Source: Bradyrhizobium arachidis | GTDB taxonomy: Bacteria; Pseudomonadota; Alphaproteobacteria; Rhizobiales; Xanthobacteraceae | Direction of reading: 5' to 3' | Assembly (NCBI RefSeq): GCF_024758505.1 | Contig: NZ_CP077970.1 | Location: forward strand, 1-64,000 | DNA: 64,000 nt | Shown: in pieces, positions 2,864 through 62,055 of the stretch | Layout: the number at the start of each line of letters is the position of its first letter | Position numbering within the stretch: the stretch's first letter is position 1 | Made by a program: the position numbers and the translations under genes | Notes under the pieces: model-generated | The model's input: only the letters and a program-made list of their open reading frames with translations | Told to the model about the DNA's origin: nothing | Databases searched by the model: none

Positions 2864-2873
2864 CGAGTTGAAG

Positions 2874-4010
2874 ATGACCCCCTCCCGCATCCATCGCCTG
2901 ACGCTGACGCATTTTCGCAATTATCGGGCGGCGGGAATCGAGACGCAGGCCGACATGGTGGCGCTGGTCGGGCACAATGGCGCCGGCAAGACCAATTGCC
3001 TGGAAGCGATCTCGTTTCTCTCGCCGGGCCGGGGCTTGCGACGCGCGACGCTGGAAGACGTTGCCGACAATCAGGGCGACGGGTCCTGGGCGGTGTCCGC
3101 GCAGGTCGAGGGCGCGCTGGGGTTGGCGACGCTCGGCACCGGCATCGACCCGCCGCGCACTGACGCGACGGTGAGCCGGCGCAGCCGCATCGACCGCGAG
3201 CCTGTGAATTCCGCCACCGCCTTTGGCGATCACATCCGCATGGTGTGGCTGACGCCGGCGATGGACGGGCTGTTCATGGGGGCCGCATCGGAACGGCGGC
3301 GCTTCTTCGATCGCCTGGTGCTCGCCATCGACAGCGAGCATTCCAGCCGCGTCTCCGCGCTCGACCGCTCGCTGCGCTCGCGCAACCGGTTGCTGGAGAC
3401 CCGCAACTATGACGACCATTGGTGCGACGCCATCGAGCGCGAAACCGCGGAGCTTGCGGTCGCAGTCGCGGCCACGCGCGGACAGACCGCCGCCAAACTC
3501 GCCGAGATGCTGCATACGCGCGGACAGGCCTCCGCATTTCCGTCTGCGCAAATCGCCCTCGACGGTTGGATGGAAAATGCGCTGTTGAATGAGCCTGCGA
3601 CCGCAGTCGAGGACCGCTATCGCCAGATTTTGCGCGACAACCGCCCGCGCGATGCCATCGCCGGCCGCACCACTGACGGTCCGCACCTCACCGACCTCCA
3701 GGTGATCTACGCACCCAAGAGCATGCCGGCGCGCGATGCCTCGACCGGCGAGCAGAAGGCGCTGCTGATCGGCCTCGTGCTGGCGCATGCCACGCTGGTG
3801 GCCGAGATGACCGGCATCGTGCCGCTATTGCTGCTCGATGAGGTCGTGGCGCATCTCGATCCCAACAGACGCACCGCCCTGTTCGGCGAGCTCGCAAAGC
3901 TCGGCGCGCAAGTCTGGCTGACGGGCGCGGACCCGGCCGCCTTTGCCGAGATCGCCGCATCGGGCGCAATCTTCGACGTCGAGAATGGCCGCGTGGCCGC
4001 ACGGCGTTGA
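2874..4010 (+). CDS. recF: DNA replication and repair protein RecF
   Basis: SMC-like ATPase that loads RecA at single-strand gaps together with RecO and RecR. Walker A GHNGAGKTN lies near residue 34, followed by the RecF-typical FLSPGRGLR. An ABC signature-like STGEQKALLIG and Walker B LLLLDEVVAHLDP are near residues 285 and 317. Length 378 aa is normal. The ATG at 2874 is chosen over an in-frame TTG at 2868 because family members begin at this point. Normally gyrB would follow closely; here a four-gene paralogue array intervenes, and its first repeat unit begins at the recF stop codon. Confidence 0.95.
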   Translation: MTPSRIHRLTLTHFRNYRAAGIETQADMVALVGHNGAGKTNCLEAISFLSPGRGLRRATLEDVADNQGDGSWAVSAQVEGALGLATLGTGIDPPRTDATVSRRSRIDREPVNSATAFGDHIRMVWLTPAMDGLFMGAASERRRFFDRLVLAIDSEHSSRVSALDRSLRSRNRLLETRNYDDHWCDAIERETAELAVAVAATRGQTAAKLAEMLHTRGQASAFPSAQIALDGWMENALLNEPATAVEDRYRQILRDNRPRDAIAGRTTDGPHLTDLQVIYAPKSMPARDASTGEQKALLIGLVLAHATLVAEMTGIVPLLLLDEVVAHLDPNRRTALFGELAKLGAQVWLTGADPAAFAEIAASGAIFDVENGRVAARR

Positions 4011-4120
4011 ACCTGCCCTGCGGCCGCAACGACTAGCTTTCTGAGGCCGCGCCGACGGTGTCGCAGCCGTTGCAATCGCGCGATGTTCTGAAACACGCGC
4101 GACACCCTTGGAGAGTGAGC
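4007..4120 (+). repeat. Array leader repeat, copy 1
   Basis: First of four related leaders, one before each array gene. Shared landmarks in order: TTGAACC at the left edge (here overlapping the recF stop), a GACTAG core at 4031-4036, CTGAGGCCGCGCCGAC, a TGTCGCAGCC block, a GCAATCGCGCGA block and a TGGAGAGTGAGC ribosome-binding segment just before the start codon. The unit boundary at the recF stop suggests leader plus gene was the duplicated unit. Confidence 0.8.
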
Positions 4121-4864
4121 ATGACGACGGTAAGGCCCGGGGCGACCGTCCCGGCACGATGGCGGCCGTTCGCGTGCGGCCTCGCTTTTCTCGCAGTCTG
4201 CTTGGTCACGGCAACCAGCGGCGAATGGATGCCGCATCTGTCGCAATTGTTTTCGCCCGCACTCACAGCGGATCCCAAAGCCGAGCTGCCCGCGCCGACC
4301 CAGTACAGCTTCAGAGGGTTCTACACCACCGTAACATTCGGCGTCGAAACGCCGCTCCGGCGCGAGCTCGACGCCCGCCTGCCCGCGCGGCTCGGTGACG
4401 TGCTGGTCTTTTATCGCACGGAGCTCGCCAAGCTCGGCTGGCAGGAACAAGGCAATGGCGCCGATGTCCGCGCCGATCACGTGCAGCTCGCCTTCGCCTC
4501 CCCGGTGGGGCCGGCGCTGCTGAAGCTCGGCCGGAAGGACAACAGCACGACGGTGAGCCTGGTGCAGAAGAACGAAAGCGTCGCAACCAGGGCGAACCTC
4601 TTGCCCGAGCCCGGCCAGGCAAAACTGGTGTTCAGCAATATCAGCGACCAGGAAGCGGCGCTGACGATCAACGCGCAAACCATCACGCGCGCCGCTGACG
4701 CCCACGGGGTCGCGCTGGATCTGCCGCCCGGCAAATACGCTTACGAACTGAACGTGCCGGGCCACCCCGCCACCACGAATGTCCTCACCGTCGCCGCCGG
4801 CGACACCTGGGAGGTCTCGGTCGGGCGTGACGGAGGCGTCTGGTCGCCCCAGCATCTTTATTGA
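4121..4864 (+). CDS. Array paralogue 1, secreted or membrane-anchored protein of unknown function
   Basis: I do not recognise a named family. The 247-aa product has a positively charged N terminus and a hydrophobic segment (RPFACGLAFLAVCLVTA), then ALTADPKAELPAPTQY, the array motif VFYRTELAKLGWQEQ, a segment LLKLGRKDNSTTVSLVQKN, and a C-terminal beta-rich domain with LDLPPGKYAYELNVPGHP and LTVAAGDTWEVSVGRDG. A Cys follows the hydrophobic core, but LAVC is a poor lipobox, so it may be anchored or cleaved by signal peptidase I. The ATG is chosen because the GGAG ribosome-binding site and spacing match the other three copies; an upstream in-frame start at 4058 would translate the leader. Confidence 0.85.
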   Translation: MTTVRPGATVPARWRPFACGLAFLAVCLVTATSGEWMPHLSQLFSPALTADPKAELPAPTQYSFRGFYTTVTFGVETPLRRELDARLPARLGDVLVFYRTELAKLGWQEQGNGADVRADHVQLAFASPVGPALLKLGRKDNSTTVSLVQKNESVATRANLLPEPGQAKLVFSNISDQEAALTINAQTITRAADAHGVALDLPPGKYAYELNVPGHPATTNVLTVAAGDTWEVSVGRDGGVWSPQHLY

Positions 4865-4889
4865 GACCCGTCCCCTTCCGAGCCCCTTT

Positions 4890-5017
4890 TTGAACCTCTC
4901 CGGTTCCTGCCGCGACTAGTTGTCTGAGGCCGCGCCGACAGTGTCGCTGCCATTGCAATCGCGCGCGAGCCAAGTCTGTGCGAGCCGAGGCTACGCGCGA
5001 GATCCTGGAGAATGACA
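4890..5017 (+). repeat. Array leader repeat, copy 2
   Basis: Second leader: TTGAACCT at 4890, GACTAG at 4914-4919, then CTGAGGCCGCGCCGACA and GTGTCGCTGCC, which match copy 1 closely, and a TGGAGAATGACA ribosome-binding segment. About 15-20 bp longer than the other copies in the stretch before the ribosome-binding site. Confidence 0.8.
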
Positions 5018-7174
5018 ATGTCGACAGTTCAGCGCGGGACGAAGGTCCCGGCACGATGGCGGCTGCTTGCCTGCGGTCTGGTTCTGGTGACGAGCTCCGC
5101 GCTCGCGGCGACGAACGACGAGGGCATCGTCGACGTCCACGCGCTGCCGCAGCTCGAAGGCGCGGTGGAGGATACGTCGCGTCCCGATCCCTATCGCGTC
5201 GAATATCGTGTGCCGACGCCGGAGGCGGTGACATCGCCCGCCGTGCGAAAACTGCTCAGCGCCGACGGCTGGGTGCCCTACATCCGTCCGCTGGAAGAGA
5301 AGAGCACCACGCTGAATTTCAAGAAGGGACGCCAGGGCCTTTCGGTTCATTTCACGCAAGCCCTCGGCCGGCCCGACCAGTCCGTGGTCTACTACTCGCA
5401 CGACCGGATCTACGGGAACGTGCCGTTTCCGGACAACGCGAGCGACATCGTATTCGATGGGACCCGGCCCTATCTCGGCTGCATCACGTCAGGCGCGCTC
5501 GATGCAACATCGGATTTCTACGCAAAAGAGATGGCTGCGATCGGCTGGCAGAAACTCACGCCGGAAACCGCCGCCCGCTGGACCGCGACCGGCCTGGATG
5601 AGACCGTCCCGAACGGCCTGCGCGTGTTCTACGAGCATCCCGACAGCAACGCCACCGGCTTCTACAAGCAGAAGCCTGTGATGCTGACACTGACGCGCCG
5701 TGACGACGGCCGCACCAATGTCGATATCAGGGTCGCACCCTTCGCACTTCCCAGCGAGCTCAAGGCCGACGGCGATCTTGCCGGCCTGCCGCGGCCGAAT
5801 CCGACCAAGACGGCCAGGAGCCTCGGCAGCGCAAGCTCCAACAAGCGCGAGATGTCGGCTGCCGTGATGGCCGAGCTGCCCGCCGTGCTCGCTTTCTACC
5901 ATCGCGAGCTCGCCGCACGCGGCTGGCAGGAGAACGGCAATGCGCCGCTCGCCGCCGGCGACGAGGTGGCGATCAAGGTCTCCACGGCGGAGGAAACCGG
6001 CGTGCTGCGGCTCGGCCGCAAATATGATTTCACCATGGTCAGCCTGACCGCGCAATTGACGGAAGCGGCGCTCGCCGCACGGATCAAGGCCAAGAAGGAA
6101 GCCGACGAACGATTCTTCAAGGATGCCGAGGCCGCTGCCAAGCAGGTCATCGCCGCCGACGAGGCCCGCCGCAAGGTGCAGGCCGCCGCGCTTTCCGATG
6201 CGCCTCTCAACGCGCTCGCCGACAGCAAGACGCCGGTGCCGCTGCCTGAGACCGCCGAGAGCGTGAAGTTCGAAGGCGAGGACGGCCGGCTCGAATTCTC
6301 CTCCACCTCGAGCGTGAAGGCGCTCAGCACCTTCTACCGTGTGACGCTGAAGAATGCGGGCTGGAAGGAGCAGCCGTCCGTCATCAATCAGCCGAACATG
6401 GCGGTGATGGAGTTTTTGAAGGGCAGCAAGTCGATCTCGATGACCGTGATGCAGATGGGTCCGAAGGTAAATGTCAGCGCCAACGGATCTGGCCTCATCA
6501 TGGCCGCAGCAAAGCCTGCGGCTGGAAGCGAGATGCAGGCGAAGGCCACCGAGCCGCTCAAGCCCGATTCCGATTCCGAGCTCCCCGCGCCGACGCAGCG
6601 CTCATCGACCTCGCTTGCTTCCACCAAGATGCCCGGCAGCACCGCTCCGTTCCGCAGAGAGCTCGAAGCCAGCATCCCTGCCCCGCTCGGCGACGTCCTT
6701 GCCTTCTACCGTGCGGAGCTGACCAAGCTTGGCTGGCAGGAGAAGGCCGACGGCGCAACCGTCACGGCCGAGCGTGCGCAGATCGACTTCACGTCGCCGC
6801 AGGGACCGGCGGTGCTGAAGCTCGGCCGGGCCAAGGGCGAGACGTCAGTCAATCTGGCGCAGAAAAATCCGGATGCCGCCACCAAGGCGGACATCATGCC
6901 CAAACCGGGTCAGGCCCGGTTGATGCTCGGCAATATCGGATCCCAGGAAGCCTCGCTCACGATCAACAAGCAGACCATCAAGATCGCGGCGGGCACAGGC
7001 ACCCCGCAATCGCCGAAGGGCCCGATGCTCGACCTGCCGCCCGGGAAGTATCAATACTCGCTGAAGGTCGCCGGCCGCCCGCCCCGCAACGACACCATCG
7101 ACATCGCCGCGGGCGATGCCTGGGGCCTGATGGTGGGTCCGACCGGCGAGGTGCTGCCGCTGCAGATGTACTGA
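5018..7174 (+). CDS. Array paralogue 2, large multi-module exported protein
   Basis: Largest array member, 718 aa, function unknown. The N terminus has a signal peptide (LLACGLVLVTSSALAATND) with a plausible signal peptidase I site after ALA. The array motif recurs at about residues 166 (DFYAKEMAAIGWQ), 292 (AFYHRELAARGWQE), 438 (TFYRVTLKNAGWKE) and 562 (AFYRAELTKLGWQE), plus a degenerate DGW at 83-85. Most modules follow a short proline motif such as VPLPETA or LPAPTQ. A charged, probably helical stretch lies near 345-395. The last 220 residues align end to end with the other array proteins, including LDLPPGKYQYSLKVAGRPP. The ATG at 5018 matches paralogue spacing; ATG 5012 is an alternative. 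Confidence 0.87.
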   Translation: MSTVQRGTKVPARWRLLACGLVLVTSSALAATNDEGIVDVHALPQLEGAVEDTSRPDPYRVEYRVPTPEAVTSPAVRKLLSADGWVPYIRPLEEKSTTLNFKKGRQGLSVHFTQALGRPDQSVVYYSHDRIYGNVPFPDNASDIVFDGTRPYLGCITSGALDATSDFYAKEMAAIGWQKLTPETAARWTATGLDETVPNGLRVFYEHPDSNATGFYKQKPVMLTLTRRDDGRTNVDIRVAPFALPSELKADGDLAGLPRPNPTKTARSLGSASSNKREMSAAVMAELPAVLAFYHRELAARGWQENGNAPLAAGDEVAIKVSTAEETGVLRLGRKYDFTMVSLTAQLTEAALAARIKAKKEADERFFKDAEAAAKQVIAADEARRKVQAAALSDAPLNALADSKTPVPLPETAESVKFEGEDGRLEFSSTSSVKALSTFYRVTLKNAGWKEQPSVINQPNMAVMEFLKGSKSISMTVMQMGPKVNVSANGSGLIMAAAKPAAGSEMQAKATEPLKPDSDSELPAPTQRSSTSLASTKMPGSTAPFRRELEASIPAPLGDVLAFYRAELTKLGWQEKADGATVTAERAQIDFTSPQGPAVLKLGRAKGETSVNLAQKNPDAATKADIMPKPGQARLMLGNIGSQEASLTINKQTIKIAAGTGTPQSPKGPMLDLPPGKYQYSLKVAGRPPRNDTIDIAAGDAWGLMVGPTGEVLPLQMY

Positions 7175-7183
7175 TCCCTCGGA

Positions 7184-7303
7184 TTGAACCCACTCGGTTC
7201 CTCAGGCGACTAGTCGCCAAGAGCTAGGCTGCGACCGTGTCGCAGCCGTGGCATCGCGCCAAGACCAAAGATTCAAGGCGCGCGATATCCCTGGAGAATG
7301 CGC
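7184..7303 (+). repeat. Array leader repeat, copy 3
   Basis: Third leader, most diverged in the centre: TTGAACC at 7184, CGGTTCCTCAGGCGACTAG, GTGTCGCAGCCGTGGCATCG, then a GCGCGCGATATCCCTGGAGA segment next to the start codon. Confidence 0.75.
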
Positions 7304-7999
7304 ATGACGACGATGAGGCGCGAGCCGAGAGCTCCGGTACCTTGGCGGCTGCTCCTGTGCGGCCTCCTGCTCCTGACGAGCTGCCGGATCGAACCGCTTA
7401 CAGCGGACCCCGGTGTCGAGTTGCCCGTACCGAAGGGATACAGGTTCAGCGGGCTCAACGACACGACAGTGCGCGGCATTAAGGCTCCGCTCCGGCGCCA
7501 GCTCGACGCCACCGTGCCCGCCGAGCTCAACGATGTCCTCGCCTTCTACCGCGCGGAACTCCACAAGCGCGGCTGGCAGGAAAAACCGGATGGCGCGGTG
7601 GTCGAAGCCGATCGCGTCCAGATCACCTTCGCCTCACCGACCGGGCCGGCGGTGCTGAAGCTCGGCCGCAAGGACGACAGCACCAGGATCAACCTCGTAC
7701 AGCGGAACCAGGATGCCGCCGCTGAAGCGAACGTCATGCCGAAGTCCGGTCAGGCGAAGCTGTTGTTCGCCAACATCGGCGAGAAGGAGGCCGTGCTCGC
7801 GATCAACGAGCAGACGGTCAGCGAGGGCGCCAACGACAAGGTCGTCTCGCTGGATCTGCCGCCCGGCAAGTATTCCTACGAACTGCGCGTGCCGGGCCAT
7901 CCGGCCCAGGCGAACATCCTCACCGTCGCCGCCGGCGATGCCTGGGGACTCACGGTCGGGCGCGACGGCGACGCGTGGTCGCCGCTCCAGCTCTACTGA
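7304..7999 (+). CDS. Array paralogue 3, predicted lipoprotein
   Basis: 231-aa protein of unknown function. The N terminus is a good lipoprotein signal: charged residues, then LLLCGLLLLTSC, where the Cys would be lipidated. After IEPLTADPGVELPVPKGY comes one copy of the array motif (AFYRAELHKRGWQEK), the segment AVLKLGRKDDSTRINLVQRN and the shared C-terminal beta-rich domain (LDLPPGKYSYELRVPGHP, LTVAAGDAWGLTVGRDG). It is the closest relative of paralogue 1 by eye, down to the ending WSPLQLY. The ATG at 7304 is chosen over ATG 7298 to match spacing in the other copies. Confidence 0.85.
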   Translation: MTTMRREPRAPVPWRLLLCGLLLLTSCRIEPLTADPGVELPVPKGYRFSGLNDTTVRGIKAPLRRQLDATVPAELNDVLAFYRAELHKRGWQEKPDGAVVEADRVQITFASPTGPAVLKLGRKDDSTRINLVQRNQDAAAEANVMPKSGQAKLLFANIGEKEAVLAINEQTVSEGANDKVVSLDLPPGKYSYELRVPGHPAQANILTVAAGDAWGLTVGRDGDAWSPLQLY

Positions 8000-8034
8000 T
8001 TGCGCGCTTCTCCGGGCGCACGGTGAGCACCCGC

Positions 8035-8146
8035 TTGAACCTGTGCGGTCCCCCTGGCGACCTAGTCGTCTGAAGGCCGCGGCGCCCCTGTCGCAGCCGC
8101 GACATCGCGCGAAGATCAAGACGTGCGGCATCCCTGGAGAGTGAGC
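8035..8146 (+). repeat. Array leader repeat, copy 4
   Basis: Fourth leader: TTGAACCT at 8035, GACCTAGTCGTCTGAAGGCC (one extra C in the GACTAG core), CTGTCGCAGCCGCGACATCG, and CATCCCTGGAGAGTGAGC before the start codon. Its ribosome-binding segment is nearly identical to copy 1. Confidence 0.78.
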
Positions 8147-8830
8147 GTGACGATCGTCAAGCGCCCCACGAAAGTTTCGACGCGATGGCGGCTGTTGGTG
8201 TGCGCCCTCACTCTTCTCGCAAGCTGTTCGAAGGAGCCGCTGACGGCAGATCCCGACGTCGACATGCCGGCACCGAAGCAAAGCAGCTTCAGCCAATTCC
8301 ACACCACGCGCGCGCATGACGCCAAGGCCCCGCTCCGGATCGAGCTCGAAGCGCGCGTGCCCGCAGAGCTCAGCGAGGTGCTCGCCTTCTACCGCAGAGA
8401 GCTCGGACAGCGCGGCTGGCAGGAGAAGCCGGATGACGCGGTGATCGCCGCCGATCGCGTACAACTCGCTTTCGTCTCCCCAAAGGGCCCGGCCGTGCTG
8501 AAGCTTGAGCGGGCCAAGGACGAAACCACGGTCAGCCTGGCACAGCGGAATCCGGAGGCCGCGGCCGAGGCCAATTTCCTGCCAATATCAGGACAAGCGC
8601 GGCTGATATTCGGCTATCTCGTGCCAGAAGTGGCTTCGCTTGTGATCAACGATCAAACCATCAAGATCGCGGGCGGCGAAAATCATCCACAAGTGCTGGA
8701 TCTGCTGCCCGGCACGTATTCCTACAAGCTGCTCGTGTCGGGCCTTTTGGTGCGCACCGATACCGTCACCCTGGCCTCAGGCGAAGCCTGGGCCCTCAAC
8801 GACGATAAGAAGCCGTCCCAGGTATACTGA
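8147..8830 (+). CDS. Array paralogue 4, predicted lipoprotein
   Basis: 227-aa protein of unknown function with a lipoprotein signal (VCALTLLASCSKEP, lipobox LASC). One array motif (AFYRRELGQRGWQEK) is followed by AVLKLERAKDETTVSLAQRN and a more diverged C-terminal domain (DLLPGTYSYKLLVSGLL). Middle sequence resembles the last module of paralogue 2 (ERAKDETTVSLAQ versus GRAKGETSVNLAQ), and the signal region resembles paralogue 3 (EPLTADP), which suggests unequal exchange within the array. The start is GTG at 8147 by alignment of ribosome-binding spacing; GTG 8141 is possible. Its stop overlaps a TGAACCC sequence resembling the left edge of a repeat unit. Confidence 0.83.
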   Translation: MTIVKRPTKVSTRWRLLVCALTLLASCSKEPLTADPDVDMPAPKQSSFSQFHTTRAHDAKAPLRIELEARVPAELSEVLAFYRRELGQRGWQEKPDDAVIAADRVQLAFVSPKGPAVLKLERAKDETTVSLAQRNPEAAAEANFLPISGQARLIFGYLVPEVASLVINDQTIKIAGGENHPQVLDLLPGTYSYKLLVSGLLVRTDTVTLASGEAWALNDDKKPSQVY

Positions 8831-9055: not shown

Positions 9056-11548
<2,493 letters not shown>

Positions 11549-11594: not shown

Positions 11595-11806
11595 CCTCTC
11601 CCGCTTGCGGGAGAGGTCGCGCCGAAGGCGCGGGTGAGGGCTTTCTCCGCTTGGGGATATTCTCCGCGGATTTCGACAATCCCACTGTGGAAGCATCCCC
11701 ACCCCACCCCCCCCCCCGGCAAACGGGAGAGGGGGCGCACCAGCTTCATGGCGACACCGCGTCCCTGAACCTCACCCCCCACAATCGCGACGAAGTGGCG
11801 TAGGCC
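11595..11806 (+). repeat. Direct repeat copy 1 with CCTCTCCCGC palindrome
   Basis: Begins with a perfect 10-bp inverted repeat (CCTCTCCCGC-TT-GCGGGAGAGG, 11595-11616), then GCGCCGAAGGCGC, an 11-base C tract at 11707-11717, CGGGAGAGGG, and ends in GACGAAGTGGCGTAGGCCCA. The same succession occurs at 12556-12785 in the same orientation, on the other side of the scramblase-like gene. It accounts for most of the 359-bp gap after gyrB. Confidence 0.75.
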
Positions 11807-12555: not shown

Positions 12556-12785
12556 TAACCTCTTCCGTTTGCGGGAGAGGGATAGGCCGCCTTCGGCGGC
12601 CGTTCTCAAGCAACGCCGAGGCAAAGCGCCGGGTGCGGGTTTTCTCCTCTAGGGGATTGTCCCGCTGCGGCGGCACCCCCACCCCGGCCCTCCCCCGCAA
12701 GCGGGAGAGGGAATGCACCACCTTCGTGGCCCGCCTGAACCCCATCATCCGCCATCACGACGAAGTAGCGTAGATCCATTGGCCA
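12556..12785 (+). repeat. Direct repeat copy 2 with CTCTTCCGTTTGCGGGAGAG palindrome
   Basis: Second copy of the element at 11595-11806, same orientation: imperfect left palindrome, GGCCGCCTTCGGCGGCC hairpin, CACCCCCACCCCGGCCCTCC, CCGCAAGCGGGAGAGGG, TGCACCACCTTCGTGGCC and ending GACGAAGTAGCGTAGATCCA. Left and right ends are better conserved than the centre. Confidence 0.72.
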
Positions 12786-38409: not shown

Positions 38410-40377
38410 ATGGAGAGCCAACCCGCAGCGCGCAAGCAGAACAAGAAGGGCAAGCCGCCGCCGATTGTCGAGATCGTGGGCGAGAATGGCGAAGAAGTCG
38501 CGCCGCCGCCACCGGAGGTTCTCGAATCCGACGCCGAGCTGACGCCCGAGGAGGCCGAGCAGGCGCGGAAGGATTATCTGCTCACCCGGTTCTGGATCAG
38601 CGCGCGGGGCTTTTGGGGCAAGAACGGCGACCGGCTGGCGTGGCCGTTCTCGATCGGCCTCGTCGTGCTGATCGTCCTGACCGTCGGCTTCCAGTACGGC
38701 ATCAATGTCTGGAATCGCGCGATTTTTGACGCGATCGAACAGCGCGATGCGGCGACGGTCTTTCACCTCTCCGCCGTGTTCTTTCCGCTCGCGATCGGCA
38801 GCATCGTGCTCGGCGTCGTGCAGGTGTTTGCGCGCATGGGCATTCAGCGCCGCTGGCGCGCCTGGCTCACCAACAGCGTGCTGACGCGCTGGCTCGCCAA
38901 CGGCCGCTATTACCAGCTCAATCTCGTCGGCGGCGACCACAAGAATCCCGAATACCGGATCGCCGAGGATTTGCGGATCGCAACGGATTCGCCGGTCGAT
39001 TTTCTCGCCGGCGTGACGTCGGCGTTCCTGTCGGCCGCAACCTTCATCGTCGTGCTCTGGACCATCGGCGGCGCGCTCACGGTGACGCTGGGCGGGACAT
39101 CGCTCACCATCCCCGGCTTCCTCGTGATCGCGGCGATCGTCTACGCCGCGATCGCGTCGAGCTCGATCATGGTGATCGGCCGGCGTTTCGTGCAGGTGTC
39201 CGAGGACAAGAACCAGGCCGAGGCCGACTTCCGCTACACGCTGACGCGCGTGCGCGAGAACGGCGAAAGCATCGCGCTGCTGGGCGGCGAGGAGGAAGAG
39301 CGCGGCGGCATCGACCGCAACCTTACAAGCCTCTTGCGGCAATGGGCGCGGCTTGCCGGGCAGCACATGCGCACCACGCTGGTGTCGCAGGGATCGGGCC
39401 TCGTTGCACCCGTCGTGCCGCTCCTGCTCTGTGCGCCAAAATTCCTCGACGGCAGCATGTCGCTCGGACAGGTGATGCAGGCGGCTTCCGCCTTCACCAT
39501 CGTGCAGAGCGCGTTCGGCTGGCTGGTGGATAATTATCCGCGGCTCGCCGACTGGAACGCCTGCGCGCGCCGCATCGCCTCGCTGATGATGTCGCTCGAC
39601 GGCCTCGAGCGTGCCGAGCAGGGCGACGGCATCGGCCGCATCAAGCGCGGCGAGACCGGCAATGATGCGATACTCGAGATGAAGGATCTTTCCGTCACGC
39701 TCGACGACGGCACTGCCGTGGTCGCCGAGACCGAGGTGGTGATCGAGTCCGGCGAGCGCCTGCTGGTCGCCGGCGAATCCGGCACCGGCAAGAGCACGCT
39801 GGTCCGCGCCATCGCCGGCCTGTGGCCATGGGGCGGCGGCAGCGTCAATTTCCATCCCGACCGCCGGCTCTTCATGCTGCCGCAGCGGCCCTACGTGCCT
39901 TCGGGCAGCTTGCGCCGCGCGGTCGCCTATCCCGGTGCCGCCGAAGACTGGACCGTGGACGAGATCGGCGGCGCCTTACACAAGGTCGGCCTCGATCATC
40001 TCAAGGAAAAGATCGAGGAAGAGGGCCCGTGGGACCAGACGCTGTCCGGCGGCGAGAAGCAGCGCCTCGCCTTCGCACGGCTCTTGCTGCACAGCCCCGA
40101 CATCGTCGTGCTGGATGAGGCGACCTCGGCGCTCGACGAAAAGAGCCAGGACAGGATGATGAAGACGGTCACGGACGAATTGCCGAAGGCGACCATCGTC
40201 AGCGTGGCGCATCGCGCCGAGCTCGAAGCCTTCCACAGCCGCAAGATCGTGCTGGAGCGGCACAAGGGCGGCGCAAAGCTCGTCAGCGACATCGACCTGA
40301 TTCCGCGCAAGGGCAAGCGCCGCCTGCTCGGCTGCTTCCTGCGCCACCGCGGGTCAAACGCGAAGAAGGCGGCGTGA
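38410..40377 (+). CDS. BacA/SbmA-like ABC transporter, fused permease and ATPase
   Basis: 655-aa half-transporter of the SbmA/BacA-related ABC family (ABC_membrane_2, similar to YddA and the ABCD group). An N-terminal cytoplasmic tail of about 70 residues is Pro/Glu-rich (VAPPPPEVLESDAELTPEEA), then the membrane domain with GFQYGINVWNRAIFDAIEQR and LTRWLANGRYYQLNLVGGDH, family hallmarks. The ATPase has Walker A GESGTGKSTLVRAIAGLWPW, signature LSGGEKQRLAFARLLLHSPD and Walker B IVVLDEATSALDE. Relatives move peptides, vitamin B12-like molecules or very-long-chain acyl groups. ATG 38410; 51 bp after the kinase, so co-transcription is possible. Confidence 0.9.
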   Translation: MESQPAARKQNKKGKPPPIVEIVGENGEEVAPPPPEVLESDAELTPEEAEQARKDYLLTRFWISARGFWGKNGDRLAWPFSIGLVVLIVLTVGFQYGINVWNRAIFDAIEQRDAATVFHLSAVFFPLAIGSIVLGVVQVFARMGIQRRWRAWLTNSVLTRWLANGRYYQLNLVGGDHKNPEYRIAEDLRIATDSPVDFLAGVTSAFLSAATFIVVLWTIGGALTVTLGGTSLTIPGFLVIAAIVYAAIASSSIMVIGRRFVQVSEDKNQAEADFRYTLTRVRENGESIALLGGEEEERGGIDRNLTSLLRQWARLAGQHMRTTLVSQGSGLVAPVVPLLLCAPKFLDGSMSLGQVMQAASAFTIVQSAFGWLVDNYPRLADWNACARRIASLMMSLDGLERAEQGDGIGRIKRGETGNDAILEMKDLSVTLDDGTAVVAETEVVIESGERLLVAGESGTGKSTLVRAIAGLWPWGGGSVNFHPDRRLFMLPQRPYVPSGSLRRAVAYPGAAEDWTVDEIGGALHKVGLDHLKEKIEEEGPWDQTLSGGEKQRLAFARLLLHSPDIVVLDEATSALDEKSQDRMMKTVTDELPKATIVSVAHRAELEAFHSRKIVLERHKGGAKLVSDIDLIPRKGKRRLLGCFLRHRGSNAKKAA

Positions 40378-40391
40378 CGATCGGCCTCGGT

Positions 40392-41123
40392 TCACGATTG
40401 CGCCGTGGGTCGAACCACGATATCGCCGACATCGACGTCCGCAGGCTGCTCGATCGCGAACGCGATGGCTCGTGCAATCGCATCCGGTGCGATCGCGATC
40501 TCGTCCATCCTGGCGGCAGTGTCCGCCCTGATCGGAGGATTGGTCATCGAGGCCGGAAAATCCGTCTTGACGAATCCGGGTGAGATGCCGGTGACCCGCA
40601 ACTTGTCACCCGCCTCGAGCCGCAAACCCTCCGAAATGGTCCGAACCGCGTTCTTCGTGCCTGCATAGACCGCCTGGTTTGGCACAATCTTCAAACCGGC
40701 CGTTGAGATCACGGTCACGAGGTGGCCGAAGCCCTGTTGCCGAAAAACGGGAAGCGCGGCGGCAACGCCATAGAGGAACCCCTTGAGATTGACGTCGATC
40801 ATCGCCTCCCAATCGTCGACGCGCAGATCGTCGAGCGGCGAAATCGGTCCTATGCCGGCATTGCCCACGAAAACGTCCAGCTTGCCGAATCGTGCGCAGG
40901 CAAACTCCACCAGTTCGTCGAGTTCCCGGCGGATCGTGACGTTCGTCGCCCTGCAGGCGGCTTGTCCTCCGGATCCGATGATTTCATCGCACAAGCCTTC
41001 AAGCCGCTGTACGCGACGGGCAGCAAGAACGACCTTTCCGCCCCGTGCCGCAAGCAGGCGCGCGCTAGCTGCGCCGATGCCACTGCTCGCCCCGGTAATG
41101 ACAATGACTTTTCCGTCAATCAT
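40392..41123 (-). CDS. SDR family oxidoreductase
   Basis: 243-aa short-chain dehydrogenase, classical type. TGASSGIGAASARLLAARGG binds the cofactor, NAG lies at 88-90, and the catalytic triad is Ser140, Tyr153 and Lys157 (VISTAGLKIVPNQ then VYAGTK). SPGFVKTDFPASM and the C terminus match clavulanate dehydrogenase-like or YdfG-like members acting on alcohols or hydroxy acids; substrate unknown. The ATG at 41123 is chosen by homology with a GGAGAG ribosome-binding region upstream. It is divergent from an AraC regulator with 111 bp between starts, a layout in which the regulator typically controls the enzyme. Confidence 0.88.
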   Translation of the reverse strand: MIDGKVIVITGASSGIGAASARLLAARGGKVVLAARRVQRLEGLCDEIIGSGGQAACRATNVTIRRELDELVEFACARFGKLDVFVGNAGIGPISPLDDLRVDDWEAMIDVNLKGFLYGVAAALPVFRQQGFGHLVTVISTAGLKIVPNQAVYAGTKNAVRTISEGLRLEAGDKLRVTGISPGFVKTDFPASMTNPPIRADTAARMDEIAIAPDAIARAIAFAIEQPADVDVGDIVVRPTAQS

Positions 41124-61938: not shown

Positions 61939-62055
61939 GCCGAACCCGGCGTCCGGATGGCCGTGAACCAACCGGCCGGCTCAGACGACCATTGCAGGCC
62001 CATCCCGTCTTCGACGTGGGCCTGATTTCGTTTGAGCCGTTTTCGAGTTGAAGCC

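Follow-up and report, generated by a model that had tools for sequence, protein, structure and literature searches.

What are four related genes doing between recF and gyrB in a Bradyrhizobium genome, and how are they expressed? The genes lie in positions 1 to 64,000 of contig NZ_CP077970.1 of Bradyrhizobium arachidis (assembly GCF_024758505.1), a stretch of 64,000 nucleotides that we call the window. An earlier note on this DNA had described four related genes in tandem, three of them short and one of 718 amino acids (aa), in an origin-adjacent position, and all of this is borne out. Four plus-strand open reading frames, g1 (4121..4864, 247 aa), g2 (5018..7174, 718 aa), g3 (7298..7999, 233 aa) and g4 (8147..8830, 227 aa, GTG start), fill the space between the recF stop (4010) and the gyrB start (9113), with dnaA, dnaN and recF directly upstream. 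New here is that each gene of this array has its own bipartite upstream element, GAACC-N16-CGAC. We modestly favor the explanation that the array has its own promoters of the extracytoplasmic function (ECF) type, and that one ECF sigma factor, freed from a membrane anti-sigma factor, activates it together with a caspase-like protein predicted to be exported. This regulatory layer and the common upstream element go beyond the earlier note, as do the repeats within g2 and a fifth paralogue (L005).

The elements lie on the plus strand at 4007..4036 before g1 (there the upstream box shares bases with the stop codon of recF), at 4890..4919 before g2 and at 7184..7213 before g3 (all three TTGAACC-N16-CGACTAG), and at 8035..8065 before g4 (TTGAACC-N16-CGACCTAG); the core is followed by TAG in g1 to g3 and by CTAG in g4. 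Within the window the core has nine matches against 0.95 expected, a number reached in none of 100 shuffles, and the array accounts for four of the nine. Across 146 genomes of the genus, exact matches of the full form TTGAACC-N16-CGACTAG number 118, compared with 38 for the reversed pattern (hand count). By place, 116 of these 118 belong to arrays or their relics: 114 are found at most 15 kb upstream of gyrB and on its strand (two being relics) and two precede array genes at contig ends, the last two lying elsewhere. Across the named loci described below and the window, a strict form of the pattern precedes 68/69 first genes, 21/62 long genes and 23/35 later genes, and a looser pattern recovers 40 of the remaining 54. 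The dispersed paralogue L005 (296 aa, at 6.456 Mb of the 9.43 Mb genome) carries GAAC-N17-CGACTAA, the core with one base changed, about 80 bp upstream.

Two boxes at a fixed distance around a variable spacer are typical of ECF promoters, and this geometry is found here. Among 78 non-redundant TGAACC-N16-CGACT sites, of which at least four are not array sites and in which the boxes are imposed by the pattern, the spacer is mostly weakly conserved, whereas T before the boxes (0.91) and A and G after them (0.82 and 0.79) are retained. Some conservation is also seen below the element. In the window genome, a spacing control one base shorter (TGAAC-N16-CGACTA) gave one match against seven for its reversed form. 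We consider it likely that the element is a promoter for an ECF sigma factor. A housekeeping promoter was also considered for the array and set aside, as the boxes as read give it no support.

A candidate for this sigma factor is encoded in the same genome (L208, positions 6339833-6340399 of genome G000, 189 aa). It belongs to a group from nine genomes including G000, the other eight members being 75–97% identical to the G000 copy, and GAACC-N16-CGACC is found close upstream of all nine. No such motif was found upstream of the four EcfQ-type paralogues that were fetched, nor upstream of the 65% relative L214. The sigma operon is preceded by the same promoter-like core as the array, as expected of autoregulation, with CGACC(A/T)A replacing CGACTA. 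Downstream of the sigma gene follow an anti-sigma-like protein, which has one membrane segment (by eye) and an NCBIfam anti-sigma match (E 5e-8, 33 bits against a cut-off of 100), and then an S8 subtilase.

The element also leads to a gene outside the array. The 22 GAACY-N16-CGACTA sites of the window genome are mostly chance matches; six carry TTGAACC: those of three array genes, that of a caspase-fold gene (Pfam), where TTGAACC-N16-CGACTA lies 51 bp upstream (L098), L097 before a membrane-protein-like frame, and L100. In 23 further family-bearing genomes, TGAACC-N16-CGACTA has 47 matches, and in six of the 23 (G357, G164, G214, G335, G316 and G155) it precedes a caspase-fold gene. The surroundings of these matches were read at 30 loci and at all matches of G155; the caspase assignment was tested with Pfam PF00656 for the window genome's gene and L157 and made by likeness of letters for the others. 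G155 has 14 matches against none for the reversed pattern, one of them (TGAACC-N16-CGACTAA) before an ECF sigma gene. At its loci (L186-L199), many matches precede predicted exported proteins, which suggests that a related sigma has a larger regulon in this other genus. Sigma and motif were compared in 12 genomes, chosen by us and partly for the motif: eight have both, and G155 and G185 have neither.

We propose that envelope damage, the putative inducing signal, would lead a membrane anti-sigma factor to release an ECF sigma of an EcfQ-like class, and that the array is turned on by the L208 sigma or by a closely related one. The freed sigma would read GAACC-N16-CGAC before the array genes, the sigma operon and the caspase-like gene, and the exported helix-grip/beta-sandwich proteins would then bind or brace envelope components. 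Taken as a set, the genes behind this core are likely to form an envelope-stress response. A gene copy duplicated together with its promoter would join the response at once, and expression capacity near the origin would rise. The broader idea, that Bradyrhizobium and its kin have an unrecognized envelope-protease stress regulon, is more tentative, and we would not yet count on it. In this view an EcfQ-class sigma, with its anti-sigma and subtilase, would govern an exported caspase together with an amplifiable array of helix-grip proteins beside oriC; every duplicated gene would bring a sigma promoter along, and the number of gene copies and dosage at the origin would set the scale of the response. 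If true, it would provide a target set and a recognition motif for an ECF class of symbiotic Bradyrhizobium reported as enigmatic, and would place an uncharacterized family of repeat proteins in one predicted response with a subtilase and a caspase-fold protein.

The class in question has been described in Bradyrhizobium japonicum, where the class-33 ECF pair consists of EcfQ (Bll1028) and Blr3042, an anti-sigma gene lies near one member of each such pair and blr3042-43-44 form a tricistronic operon (PMC3420878); blr3042-44 are also named in PMC8632152. The window genome has a comparable pair: an EcfQ-like protein (L225, 203 aa with the start chosen), 63% identical to the L208 sigma, and its 189-aa partner, the L208 sigma itself, with adjacent anti-sigma and subtilase genes. 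In the part of PMC3420878 available to us, the authors report finding no recognition motif for EcfQ and, unlike the present proposal, draw no link to bll0825 or bll0826. The same source describes EcfF/OsrA of B. japonicum, which resembles the proposed system in being an autoregulated ECF with a bipartite promoter and differs in its boxes, GTAAC(g,a)-N14-15-(c,t)CG(t,a) compared to GAACC-N16-CGAC here. Our literature searches found no report combining TGAACC with ECF and sigma factor, none naming bll0824, bll0825 or bll0826, and, among the titles listed for Bradyrhizobium recF/gyrB lipoproteins, none on the locus. In B. japonicum, differential RNA sequencing gave only RpoD- and RpoN-like conserved motifs, in the portion of PMC4842269 that we could consult; a regulon of few genes might escape such a motif search.

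We next consider the proteins. The earlier note had listed motifs and export signals common to all four: FYRxEL..GWQE is indeed found in each of them, whereas KLGR and LDLPPGKY are unchanged only in g1, g2 and g3 and are worn to KLER and LDLLPGTY in g4, which has the most diverged C-terminal motif. Likewise, all four have hydrophobic or signal-like N-termini, and a strict lipobox within the first 45 residues is restricted to g3 (LTSC) and g4 (LASC). Across the loci, window included, a strict lipobox is present in 34/69 first, 9/62 long and 23/33 last genes, as counted from script-chosen start codons. In the array itself, start codons were chosen by likeness among paralogues, and g2 would have 720 aa if the ATG at 5012 were used. 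In the short proteins g1, g3 and g4 (227–247 aa), an N-terminal export segment precedes a single FYRxEL..GWQE domain, which is followed by a C-terminal beta domain with the LDLPPGKY motif. The long protein g2 is a repeat protein: after a signal peptide-like start it has four FYR/GW units, units I-III at 5177..6510 (5177-5750, 5756-6154 and 6203-6510, borders set by hand) and unit IV at 6545..7171 together with the same C-terminal domain. The protein g3 is 60% identical to g1, 53% to g4 and 55% to the C-terminal part of g2 (E 4e-79 to 6e-63), a paralogy that exceeds chance by far. At E 0.001, a search of the 9.43 Mb genome gave no family member beyond these four and L005.

In agreement with the statement of the earlier note that no named function was recognizable, searches of the array proteins against our copies of Pfam and NCBIfam returned sub-threshold matches only, fvmX5 (PF20003) for example scoring 18 and 13.5 bits against a gathering cut-off of 24.2. 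A precomputed accession, PF27226, is assigned to g2, covers the long relatives listed and is not listed for the short paralogues; it gave no match with the Pfam copy searched. The array proteins are predicted to combine one to four helix-grip domains of the DcrB/BamC type with an AlgF/PepT-like beta-sandwich; an AlphaFold2 model of g3 has a predicted local distance difference test score (pLDDT) of 88.9. The predicted fold agrees with the helix-grip fold of DcrB and BamC lipoproteins. The group formed by DcrB, PA1624, the Eag chaperone SciW and BamC differs, however, in showing no sequence-family match to the array proteins (no DcrB or BamC profile matched above cut-off), which moreover repeat the domain one to four times and add the beta-sandwich. 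The AlgF domains and the extracellular domain of PepT1/PepT2 are only about 12–16% identical, the transporter part is absent from the array proteins, and the AlgF profile gave no match at E up to 1, the likeness being at the level of fold. Two further searches were not used: Foldseek with a model of the long protein (pLDDT 73.5), whose matches were mostly partial or of low template modeling (TM) score, and a sequence search of solved structures, which gave a single match at E 0.48. Judged from their N-termini, the array proteins are probably exported; the models would place them in the periplasm or on the membrane, where their role toward envelope components may be one of binding or bracing and not catalytic.

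The earlier note had also taken the array for an insertion special to this genome, and this claim does not stand. A profile scan of named genomes with the family alignment yielded 97 stretches encoding relatives, of which 80 were kept, representing 73 distinct loci. Of these, 70 contain both recF and gyrB (two, L026 and L029, on one contig), and in all 70 family frames of at least 200 aa lie between the two; shorter frames were left out of gene counts. Because the loci were selected for encoding the family, they show its placement and not its frequency. As to frequency, the long protein has a match at E 0.001 in 86 of the 146 genomes of the genus. Among the matches listed, 67 of 70 long-gene copies lie upstream of gyrB on the same contig and strand, the other three being in G016 and G099, for which the threshold used gave no gyrB, and in G007, where gyrB is on another contig. 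A unique insertion is thus rejected, the slot being occupied in many relatives. The condition under which the note would have given up its view, an ordinary and fixed gene set in relatives, largely applies, yet 60 of the 146 genomes have no match.

In the host's taxonomic family, 38 of 248 genomes and 11 of 47 genera match, its own genus counted. Among 20 regions fetched from this wider search, the long gene lies at recF-gyrB in five genomes of genus g26 (L136-L139 and L152) and two of genus g20 (L140 and L153), and G357, of the same genus as the host, has two long genes in tandem there (L154). Each of these tandem genes has its own TGAACC-N16-CGACT element, and no short gene was seen in the interval. 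L155 is a dispersed paralogue from the same genus, and dispersed copies outside the slot are known from some other relatives as well. The remaining 11 regions have no recF or gyrB in the stretch and frames of up to about 1,010 aa; in L151 the contig, and in L143 the left side, is too short for this to be judged.

The number of genes in the slot is variable. The 70 named loci have one to three family genes, arranged as short-long-short (28), short-long (27), short (11), long-short (2), long-short-short (1) and long (1), and the window, with four genes in the order short-long-short-short, has the largest layout of the 71. Of 20 recF-gyrB intervals also fetched in the genus, 13 come from genomes in which the family match is weak or absent. 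Ten of these 13 are empty (229–491 bp), L106 and L107 keep a promoter element and a signal-peptide start, and L115 keeps a C-terminal scrap. Because such relics remain, loss of the family by deletion at the slot is suggested, in-place deletion being the simplest reading of these three intervals.

In a tree of the C-terminal units, two groups of short genes (support 98/100 and 85/94) and the array clade's long genes stand apart from a further group (100/99), which comprises the sequences from all other genera and this genus's divergent long genes. The root was placed by the other genera, in our reading, and the row L028_s1_1, with a very long branch and a script-chosen frame, was ignored. Because the tree groups them in this way, the short genes most simply derive, within the genus, from the C-terminal unit of a long gene, in g2 presumably unit IV with the beta domain, and this unit would have been duplicated together with a promoter. 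Median ratios of nonsynonymous to synonymous substitution rates (dN/dS) are 0.42 for first genes (59 pairs), 0.28 for long genes (60 pairs) and 0.43 for last genes (14 pairs), compared to 0.08–0.10 for recF and gyrB; these ratios indicate that the array genes are under purifying selection. Together with the changing gene number, they agree with the suggestion of the earlier note that the copies diversify by duplication. The origin-adjacent slot would then be a place where a family grows and shrinks by duplication and deletion, leaving relics that can still be read, such as a promoter element left alone with the beginning of a signal peptide.

Several observations weigh against ECF control of the array by the L208 sigma. 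Five core matches in the window lie outside the array (11767-11791, 12737-12761, 38497-38521, 40412-40436 and 61965-61989), and the genome-wide count of 22 GAACY-N16-CGACTA sites, against 16 reversed, is no clear enrichment. Because the g1 element overlaps the recF stop, TGA is favored there regardless of any promoter role. In other genera, only 5 of 18 fetched regions have the exact motif before the long gene, at gyrB in L137, L140 and L153 and away from it in L141 and L147, with unrelated spacers; L136 has a near match, and no such site was found upstream of the long gene in the remaining 12, including most of g26 and all of g41. The sigma's own box, CGACC(A/T)A, differs from the CGACTAG of the array. 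In G162 the long gene carries the motif, yet the genome has no close orthologue of the L208 sigma; G214 has the sigma, with no motif found at the long gene. The long gene of G155 lacks the motif, one of the 13 other matches of that genome is a copy of the same sequence, and, because a different ECF gene lies behind the boxes there, another ECF sigma can evidently carry them. Finally, the L208 sigma appears to be of the Blr3042 type by layout, length and pairing rather than by sequence comparison; the Bll1028/Blr3042 pair is 55% identical compared with 63% here, and deletion of Blr3042 gave no phenotype, its function being called enigmatic (B. japonicum data from the available part of PMC3420878).

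The likelihoods that we give to other explanations overlap and are not to be summed with that of the preferred one. The broken pairing in G155, G162 and G214 and the different ECF gene behind the same boxes in G155 would be expected if another ECF sigma (of the G155 type, EcfQ or the general stress sigma EcfG) read the element and the L208 sigma shared only its style of boxes. We think this unlikely, though it has to be taken seriously: the EcfQ-like partner is similar enough to the L208 sigma that it could read the same site, yet the motif precedes every member of the proposed sigma group and none of the four EcfQ types. EcfG sites have the boxes GGAAC and CGTT. They share GAAC and a similar spacing with the array element and differ from it in the second box, CGTT instead of CGAC; sites of this type are shown for RpoE2 in PMC6180224. 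A sigma of the G155 type was rejected as general regulator of the array, since its nearest relatives in the window genome are only 28–32% identical. It is improbable, in our view, that the genes are ordinary fast-evolving exported proteins in a permissive slot, with no common response. The slot is indeed variable, being empty, a relic or occupied by unrelated genes (a sulfatase-like frame, an acyltransferase), but within the genus the promoter-like boxes are nearly exclusive to the array, they recur at the dispersed paralogue L005, and the array genes show purifying selection.

Slightly more improbable is that the conserved element is an operator or an RNA element that each gene brought along when it was copied, and that the housekeeping sigma expresses the array. 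An inverted repeat, GAACC-N5-GGTTC, does occur within the strict-pattern elements of 17/21 long and 13/23 later genes, and the conserved sequence below the element would fit as well. The repeat is, however, present in only 7/68 first-gene and 0/5 other-genus elements, while both boxes and the 16-base spacing persist, and the geometry is that of ECF promoters, with ECF genes themselves having such an element in front. That the array proteins are accessory parts of surface-polysaccharide acylation, as AlgF-like adaptors, seems very improbable, although it is compatible with ECF control.

With regard to the flanks of the array, recF (2868..4010, plus strand) and dnaN recur in relatives, dnaA was identified by reading its letters, and gyrB follows at 9113..11548 on the plus strand. 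Some kb beyond gyrB, TGAACC-N16-CGACTGAG recurs in L021 (~18483), L053 (~18333), L063 (~17976) and L075 (~19793), in surroundings that are partly conserved and without array link. A sulfatase-like gene, recognized by eye from its protein letters, lies between the long and last short gene in L023 (13100-15703) and in L027 (7751-10356), where it is split into several frames. In divergent genomes of the genus (L116, L117, L119 and L121), a convergent frame lies between the long gene and gyrB; it is an acyltransferase-3/SGNH fusion by Pfam in L116 and by likeness in the others, in two pieces in L117. Further genomes have gaps of about 2.2 kb at this place, and in genus g26 (L138, L139 and L152) it holds a 402-aa membrane-protein-like frame. 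In Bradyrhizobium japonicum SZCCT0153, the dnaN-recF-array-gyrB block occurs twice on one contig in opposite orientation (L026 and L029), with identical positions within the locus, as a true duplication or an assembly artefact.

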